IMG/VR virus record: IMGVR_UViG_3300036901_000034
Location: 1-34,051 of that record
DNA length: 34,051 bases
Origin: a virus
Reading direction: 5' to 3' (one strand)
The notes under the pieces are model-generated. The model did not search any database. It had not been told where the DNA came from and saw only the letters and a list, made by a program, of their open reading frames with translations. The position numbers were made by a program, and so were the translations under genes. Shown here piece by piece: positions 963-34,051 of the stretch; position 1 is the first letter of the stretch; each line of letters begins with the position of its first letter.

Positions 963-1040
963 ATTAGTTGTGATTGTGTTTTTGAAAAACTGATATATAC
1001 TGCTTTTGATATTAGAAGGTGTGAATTGCTAGACAGTTCT

Positions 1041-1069
1041 TTGACATCCGATTGGCAACTGCCACTAAT
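1041..1069 (+). promoter_or_regulatory. Putative promoter of the orphan RNA
   Basis: A perfect -35 TTGACA (1041-1046), a 17-nt spacer and ACTAAT (1064-1069, four of six matches to TATAAT) would start transcription near 1076, at the upstream edge of the tnpB/omega-RNA-like sequence. A second weaker candidate is TTGTGT (974-979) with TATACT (996-1001), 16 nt apart. Confidence 0.45.
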
Positions 1070-1085
1070 ATTTTAGTAATGTTTT

Positions 1086-1190
1086 GATACGGCTAGCTTG
1101 ACCGGATTTTAAGCCTGTGGAGAGGAGGGCGCTGGCTTATGTTTTAAGACATAAGTGAAAACAGTCTCAATGAAGCAGGAAATTAACACT
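1086..1190 (+). pseudogene. tnpB: Relic of IS200/IS605 tnpB 3' end
   Basis: Read in the frame starting at 1086, the sequence gives DTASLTGF-stop-ACGEEGAG, then KT-stop-VKTVSMKQEINT. That is the C-terminal signature of TnpB/OrfB proteins: an N/D-T-A-x-L-x-G stretch, then ACGEE, then VK-S-KQE. Two in-frame TAA codons (1110-1112 and 1152-1154) and the absence of any upstream TnpB body show that it cannot make a TnpB protein. No tnpB-like protein is encoded elsewhere in the genome. In IS200/IS605 elements this part of the gene doubles as the omega-RNA scaffold, so retention of sequence here may reflect RNA rather than protein function. Recognition is from remembered family motifs, not from a search. 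Confidence 0.65.
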
Positions 1191-1216
1191 GAATCTGCCC
1201 ATGGGGCAGATTCAGT
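1188..1216. terminator. 13-bp perfect hairpin between convergent operons
   Basis: ACTGAATCTGCCC and its exact complement are separated by a 3-nt ATG loop. The hairpin lies between the end of the rightward fibre gene (962) and the end of the leftward recombination operon (1281). There is no strong T-tract on either side, so it may be a bidirectional stop, the end structure of the omega-RNA-like sequence, or both. Confidence 0.6.
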
Positions 1217-1280
1217 TAGGTTTAATGGAGCGGTAGTAAATGGTAATTAACTTGATTTTGATGCTTAAATTTAGAAGCGC

Positions 1281-32969: not shown

Positions 32970-34051
32970 ATGGCCGTCAATATTCAGTTAAAACAGTTTA
33001 CTGTTAAAACAGCACCAGTCCCCGCGGATTTGGTTTACTCAGCAGATTCAACAAATAATTATAATGAAGTACAAACGACCATTGCTGAATTAATAGGTGC
33101 ATACCCCTCTCTTTTATCGATTGGCAGTTTAACAACGGCAGCAAATCAACTTATTTACTCAAGTGGGGTGAATACATTTTCGACAGCCACGTTAACTGCA
33201 TTTGGTTTATCGGTTTTAGCATTAACGGCAGGGGTAACTACACCCACGGCAGCGGCTCTAGCGACTTGGGATGCAAATGCAAATTTATCTGCAAATAATT
33301 TTTTACCGGGTTTCAATTCGATTCCATCAGCAGCTACAACAACAATACTCACGGTTGCAAGCGCTGAAGTGCAGCAAATTACTGGTGTAACTACTCAAAT
33401 AATACAAATGCCAGTGACTTCAACATTAAAACAAGGGCAGCCATATTCAATTATCAATAGTTCAACAGGCCTTGTAACCGTCAATTCATCGGGAGGAAAT
33501 GCTATAGGGACATTAGCACCTGGTACGATGATGAATTTGACAACGATATTAACCAGTGGGACAACAGCGGCATCCTGGTTTGCAGAATACGTGGTTTCCG
33601 GCGCAGTAAACTCAGTGGCGGGTGATAGTGGATCGGCTACACCCTCAAGCGGATCATTAACGTTTACAGGCGGCTCCACAGGATTAACTTTTGCGGGTTC
33701 AGGGCACACGCTCACGTTAGGCGGTTTATTGGGTGGGGGTTATGGGGGAACGGGTGTCAATAATGGTAGTTCAGTATTAACTTATGCTGGCAACGTATCC
33801 TTTTTAGGCTCCTTTACCTTTACAGGAACATTGACAGCAAACACCTCAGTCACGTTCCCAACAAGTGGCACGCTGGCAACGACAAGCCAATTGCCTACTG
33901 GCGCTGCTCTCACCGAGATCAACGATACGAACGTCACTTTGACATTAGGGGGTACTCCTGCAACCGCATTGCTTCAAGCCGTGTCATTTACTCTTGGCTG
34001 GAATGGGACCTTGTCAGGTGCGCGAGGTGGTACTGGCGTTGCTAACACAGG
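32970..34051 (+). CDS. Distal tail fibre protein, 5' part (continues at base 1)
   Basis: This is the first part of a 638-residue protein that continues across the circular join to the stop at 960-962. The ATG follows a GAGG ribosome site (gacagaggtttaatcATG) and directly follows the gene ending at 32967. The codon made of bases 33924, 1 and 2 keeps the frame. The N-terminus (MAVNIQLKQFTVKTAPVPAD, then a segment with NEVQTTIAELIGAYPSL) is a recurrent N-terminal module of phage fibre proteins. The body is Gly/Ser/Thr-rich with fibre repeats such as GGTGVNNGSS and FTGTLTANTSVTFPTSG. It is probably the receptor-binding fibre; the N-terminus would dock on the tail or on the collar-domain fibre at 29888. 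The family-level role is inferred from repeats and position. Confidence 0.85.
   Translation, partial: MAVNIQLKQFTVKTAPVPADLVYSADSTNNYNEVQTTIAELIGAYPSLLSIGSLTTAANQLIYSSGVNTFSTATLTAFGLSVLALTAGVTTPTAAALATWDANANLSANNFLPGFNSIPSAATTTILTVASAEVQQITGVTTQIIQMPVTSTLKQGQPYSIINSSTGLVTVNSSGGNAIGTLAPGTMMNLTTILTSGTTAASWFAEYVVSGAVNSVAGDSGSATPSSGSLTFTGGSTGLTFAGSGHTLTLGGLLGGGYGGTGVNNGSSVLTYAGNVSFLGSFTFTGTLTANTSVTFPTSGTLATTSQLPTGAALTEINDTNVTLTLGGTPATALLQAVSFTLGWNGTLSGARGGTGVANT
33815..33898 (+). repeat. 84-bp exact direct repeat in the fibre gene, copy 1
   Basis: Identical to 173-256, in frame. The flanking protein sequence is similar but not identical between copies (GGTGVNNGSS versus GGTGVANTGS), so the exact core looks recently homogenised or duplicated. 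Confidence 0.95.
33925..34051. repeat. Right copy of 127-bp terminal overlap
   Basis: Identical to bases 1-127. Removing it gives a unique circle of 33,924 bp. Confidence 0.95.

Follow-up and report, generated by a model that had tools for sequence, protein, structure and literature searches.

An IS607 guide-RNA-like sequence without a nuclease gene between two convergent phage genes

The window that we analyzed is the whole of IMG/VR record IMGVR_UViG_3300036901_000034 (34,051 nucleotides), a circular phage record with a 127-bp terminal repeat. To judge from sequence comparisons, positions 1088–1233 are a complete, fold-competent IS607 reRNA-like sequence (reRNA is the guide RNA of TnpB) without a nuclease gene; it is an orphan and not a full system. 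We estimate a probability of roughly 60% that this piece is a truncated or miniature non-autonomous derivative of an IS607 element, with an intact guide RNA, which sits passively between two convergent phage genes and would need TnpB in trans. Cas12 descends from TnpB, which is thought to serve the retention of its own transposon.

The locus and its similarity to tnpB

The phage record contains terminase, portal-type, replication, and recombination genes. There is no TnpB body and no TnpA anywhere in the window. The guide-RNA piece lies in a 318-bp gap between two convergent genes, and the features of this region are as follows.

Ends at 962: tail-fibre gene, convergent with the gene at 1281–1808
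1018–1040, plus strand: candidate IS607-type left end, GG (1018–1019) followed by TGTGAATTGCTAGACAGTTC
1041–1069, plus strand: promoter-like pair, TTGACA (1041–1046), 17 nt, ACTAAT (1064–1069); 10/12 matches
1088–1233, plus strand: predicted complete IS607 TnpB guide-RNA (reRNA) scaffold, comprising the relic of a tnpB 3' end and the right end; from blastn, a covariance model, and base pairs
1090–1104, plus strand: stem-loop 1 (CGG-C-U / G-A-CCG, loop AGCUU), with one broken pair (C1093 x A1101); from a hand alignment to the L009 type
1114–1181, plus strand: RAGATH-18 core, a CCUGU...GCAGG stem with an inner hairpin at 1135–1156; from the match to RF03064
1182–1226, plus strand: right-end stem AUUAA/UUAAU around a perfect 13-bp hairpin (1188–1216); from comparison with relatives
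1228–1233, plus strand: scaffold end GAGCGG, of which GAGC (1228–1231) pairs with loop GCUU (1096–1099) as a pseudoknot
1234–1253, plus strand: sequence in the guide position, TAGTAAATGGTAATTAACTT; from the boundary in ISXfa1 (PMC10711439)
1281–1808, minus strand: gene without an assigned function (PHROG 2698)

The tail-fibre gene crosses the junction of the circle (window positions 32970–34051 and 3–962). The module FTGTLTANTSVTFPTSGTLATTSQLPT is repeated in it, and the 127-bp terminal repeat lies inside the gene.

With blastn, region 963–1280 matched the 3' ends of plasmid-borne tnpB genes (94 nt at 74% in the best match, with E = 3e-7). The matched part starts at 1088 and continues through ...GCCTGTGGAGAGGAGGGCGCTGGC...TCAATGAAGCAGGAA, and overall the homology runs from stem-loop 1 to just after GAGCGG. 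The first-pass annotation had drawn the limits at 1076–1226; the stretch is real, but the homology spans 1088–1233, and the GAGCGG end lies beyond the limit that was given. The TnpB reading frame has two stops (TASLTGF*ACGEEGAGLCFKT*VKTVSMKQEINTE), and its translation includes the 3' signature of tnpB that had been noticed, ACGEEG...SMKQE.

The piece had also been described as decayed tnpB. It is a relic of a tnpB 3' end, but the two stops alone do not indicate decay, because an IS607 element of Desulfovibrio piger (L040) has lost the C-terminal frame over the same stretch while its TnpB body is intact. In the D. piger elements (L039 and L040), the inner hairpin is 2 nt shorter, which shifts the tnpB frame: the RNA is kept and the C-terminal peptide is lost. 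We also considered positions 963–1087 as decayed tnpB (FEKL...DIRRC...), and rejected this: with a frameshift-tolerant profile, 120 of 300 shuffled sequences scored as well, and Pfam was also against it.

To model the RNA, we aligned eleven relatives, leaving the window out of the training set. The resulting covariance model (R1) matched positions 1079–1233 with 106.4 bits (E = 5e-25), which is above the 95.3 bits of a relative with a complete tnpB (L055). The Rfam family RAGATH-18 (RF03064), which is the guide RNA of IS607 TnpBs (Ren et al. 2024, PMC11061315), gave 28.1 bits for the window (E = 0.0022 in a 351-nt search). This is on par with the reRNAs of the relatives (25.9–27.8 bits); the gathering cut-off of 44.9 bits is reached by neither the window nor any tested member of this proteobacterial subfamily.

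The first-pass annotation had placed the piece in the IS200/IS605 family, which has a Y1 transposase. In the intact relatives that we checked, the adjoining TnpA is an IS607-family serine transposase, so we file the piece under IS607 and not under IS200/IS605. Neither the IS200 nor the IS607 model of NCBIfam reaches its cut-off with the TnpB proteins of L009 (from Hydrogenophilus) and L010.

The predicted guide RNA

With the window aligned by hand to the L009 type, 34 of the 36 stem pairs of the consensus fold are formed, as compared to 32–36 in the relatives, and the structure goes beyond chance (fold z = -3.5). The two hairpins that had been noted, of 7 and 13 bp, are both present: the arms of the inner hairpin are GCUUAUGUU and GACAUAAGU at 1135–1143/1148–1156, and the arms of the 13-bp hairpin are at 1188–1200/1204–1216 and pair perfectly. 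The right-end stem has been swapped pair by pair, from GUCAG/CUGAC or similar in the relatives to AUUAA/UUAAU in the window.

All four pairs of the pseudoknot are also formed. In this family the pseudoknot is GUUC:GAAC, and three of its four pairs are invariant across the 11 relatives. Both of its sides are altered in the window (GCUU and GAGC), yet pairing is retained, as G-C, C-G (by a double change), U-A, and U.G. Activity of ISXfa1 requires a pseudoknot (PMC10711439), and we infer that this is the same one. The compensatory changes may date from a functional ancestor, since one sequence is no proof of selection after the loss of tnpB, and the intact fold may merely reflect a recent insertion. 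The similarity is significant and the hairpins are not decayed, and the core of the earlier proposal is borne out: an orphan scaffold of a TnpB guide RNA, whose RNA parts are intact and whose nuclease gene is missing.

Could just one part of this structure have been kept, for another purpose? The 13-bp hairpin might be a transcription terminator between the convergent phage genes. On the minus strand it is followed by T-rich sequence, with a weak terminator-like call, and other hairpins occupy the same place in relatives. But the T tract is weak, there is no call on the plus strand, and the stop codon of the minus-strand gene is already spanned by a phage hairpin. A terminator would also leave the conservation of stem-loop 1, the core, and the pseudoknot unexplained, and we consider it very unlikely.

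The right end of the scaffold, GAGCGG, aligns with GAACGG in the 11 relatives and ends in GG. In ISXfa1, the right-end GG counts as part of the scaffold (PMC10711439), so we predict that the guide here would be 1234–1253, and not the sequence after 1217 as had been proposed. Even with as many as 3 mismatches allowed, the first 18 nt of this sequence occur nowhere else in the window. Potential targets in IMG/VR amounted to two exact 18-mer matches; both are in unrelated, AT-rich contigs with CTG instead of GG before the match, and we rejected them.

These searches bear on the idea, put forward in the first-pass annotation, that the phage has adapted the RNA as a guide or decoy, which would occupy the host's TnpB or turn it on phages that lack the insertion. 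This would resemble the RNA anti-CRISPRs, which are phage loci that mimic the RNA of a host's RNA-guided nuclease. The piece shares with them RNA mimicry in a phage locus; conservation across phages was not found, as R1 had no match in 13 related-phage records, many of them fragments. In four related phages, the same two convergent genes are 135–230 bp apart, instead of 318 bp, and the DNA between them contains no reRNA and does not align to the window. The piece is known from a single copy, and we found no empty site among the sampled relatives. The RNA does look intact, and two other viral contigs (L051 and L052) have gene-less reRNAs between phage genes. On the other hand, besides the missing matches in related phages and the lack of a credible target preceded by GG, gene-less copies are equally frequent in bacterial genomes. 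We consider a phage-adapted guide or decoy to be extremely unlikely.

The upstream region

About 20 nt upstream of stem-loop 1 is a promoter-like pair, of which the perfect -35 box (TTGACA) had been noted as a promoter. The -10 box (ACTAAT) is poor, with 4/6 matches, and a strict promoter scan did not call this TTGACA-17-ACTAAT pair. A pair this good is expected with p = 0.026 within 80 nt, or with p = 0.0046 in the register of other gene-less elements. For instance, the gene-less copies in one bacterial genome (G223) have TTGACT-16-TATAAT in the matching register.

A left end at 1018 is only suggested. The distance from its GG to the old start codon of tnpA (ATG at 1079–1081) would be 61 nt, and intact left ends have about 45–63 nt. 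However, a position weight matrix for the terminal sequence was not significant at 1018 (1480 of 5000 shuffles were equally good). Among seven intact left ends, just one, in the left-end/promoter region of L098, aligns better than most shuffles (7/500 were as good, uncorrected for multiple comparisons). Because the left end is without statistical support, the piece may simply be truncated.

The main alternative is that the piece is inert: a full IS607 insertion suffered a deletion that left its last ~150 bp, with no promoter and no RNA function, and the remnant persists by chance in a harmless intergenic spot. Consistent with this, the left end is not significant, and half of the bacterial loci that could be classified are orphans (described below), several of which have residual tnpB and no promoter. 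Against it, the surviving piece happens to cover the entire reRNA from its first stem, the stems and the pseudoknot are intact, and the promoter-like pair is in the register of multi-copy gene-less elements. An inert relic is possible, and we give it real weight as the lesser of these two readings; the better explanation seems to be an IS607 derivative that is non-autonomous and has kept its guide RNA intact.

Gene-less copies in other phages and bacteria

We scanned IMG/VR with a degenerate pattern for the core and found twelve contigs. Of these, 7/12 contain the reRNA but not the body of tnpB, including a near-identical pair (L051 and L059) in which the left end, the promoter of tnpA, and its first codons are still present and are fused to the reRNA. 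In L052, the left end and promoter region are joined to the reRNA. The contigs of L051 and L052 contain phage genes, and the reRNAs lie between them. We found no match to the empty site of L051, and searches of viral and genome contigs with narrow patterns, based on the sequence in the window, did not turn up a close copy.

In bacteria, 23 of the 46 loci of this proteobacterial subfamily that could be classified are orphans, and several of these have 60–300 nt of residual tnpB and no promoter. A promoter-like pair with at least 9/12 matches is present in 4/22 bacterial orphans and in 2/15 controls that have tnpB, so a promoter is a trait of some miniature copies and not of orphans generally. 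More broadly, 64% of RAGATH-18 RNAs adjoin IS607 TnpBs (PMC11061315), which implies that 36% are elsewhere.

The bacterial genome G223 has eight gene-less copies of an IS607 reRNA (L131–L136). A unit of about 284 bp, 94–97% identical and with different flanks, is common to L132, L134, L135, and L136; the copies of this form have a near-consensus promoter, and each has a different guide sequence downstream. The unit starts after GG, ends with GCAACGG (or GCAACAG in L135), and contains TTGACT-16-TATAAT or a similar promoter, with 21 nt between it and stem-loop 1. These units look like IS607-type miniature elements with a whole guide RNA.

The anatomy of the window's piece matches that of these miniatures and of the viral ones (L051/L059 and L052): no genes, a promoter-like pair before stem-loop 1 (at about 20 nt in G223, L052, and the window), a complete reRNA, and a GG end. 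The piece differs in that its left end is unproven, it is a single copy, and its -10 box is weaker. Because there are gene-less copies in other phages and in bacteria, the piece is most likely a mobile passenger that has been stripped down, and not a phage weapon.

We propose that an IS607-family insertion lost tnpA and the body of tnpB, while the right end and the overlapping, entire reRNA scaffold remained. The weak promoter would lie where the tnpA promoter used to be. Transcription could start at this promoter or run on from the tail-fibre gene. If the host produces an IS607 TnpB that fits, the folded RNA would load it and direct it to the 20 nt that flank the insertion, and retention of the insertion would be favoured; without a matching TnpB, the element would be silent. 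The TnpB would have to come from the host or from another element. If the short form does move, is transcribed, and loads TnpB, then any direct benefit would go to the element and not to the phage.

The existence of gene-less elements with a complete folded guide RNA, in both phages and bacteria, suggests that there may be value in keeping just the guide. If so, non-autonomous copies could gain TnpB-driven retention in trans. A stronger version of this idea is that IS607 gave rise to mobile elements that consist of just a promoter, the complete reRNA, and a site-specific guide, which spread among bacteria and phages by using the TnpA and TnpB of other copies in trans and, in phages, turn the host's TnpB on siblings that lack the insertion; we regard this as quite unlikely. 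In open-licence papers on orphan, standalone, or miniature TnpB RNAs, we found no promoter-driven IS607 miniatures.

Several types of known loci are similar in some respects. PATE- or MITE-type elements are non-autonomous derivatives of IS200/IS605 that keep their ends, have lost the transposase, and are moved in trans; the piece in the window is instead related to IS607, with a serine transposase and not a Y1 transposase. Stand-alone IscB omega-RNAs have been described in Ktedonobacter, with multiple copies in one bacterium. Like the piece in the window, these are guide-RNA loci without a nuclease gene, but the nuclease family and the RNA fold are different. The closest similarity is to the IS607 TnpB reRNA itself (RAGATH-18, RF03064, PMC11061315; ISXfa1, PMC10711439), with the CCUGU/GCAGG core, the inner hairpin, the right-end stem, the pseudoknot, the GG end, and a length of ~150 nt. 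Unlike those reRNAs, the piece in the window has no tnpB upstream.

We also noticed some unusual arrangements of these RNAs. In a contig from another genome (G256:C11:212-2012), three matches to the reRNA model are exactly 795 bp apart, in a tandem array. In L053:9950-10245, a right-end tail (GATGAGTAAGTCTGATGGAACGG) is followed immediately by a promoter-like TTGACT-17-TATTCT and then by another reRNA, an arrangement that resembles a tandem or circle junction. Finally, a Sulfuricystis plasmid (L008:1-1612) has two subfamilies side by side: ~400 bp separate an orphan reRNA of one of them from the gene for a different type of TnpB (42% identity to L009), which is on the opposite strand.
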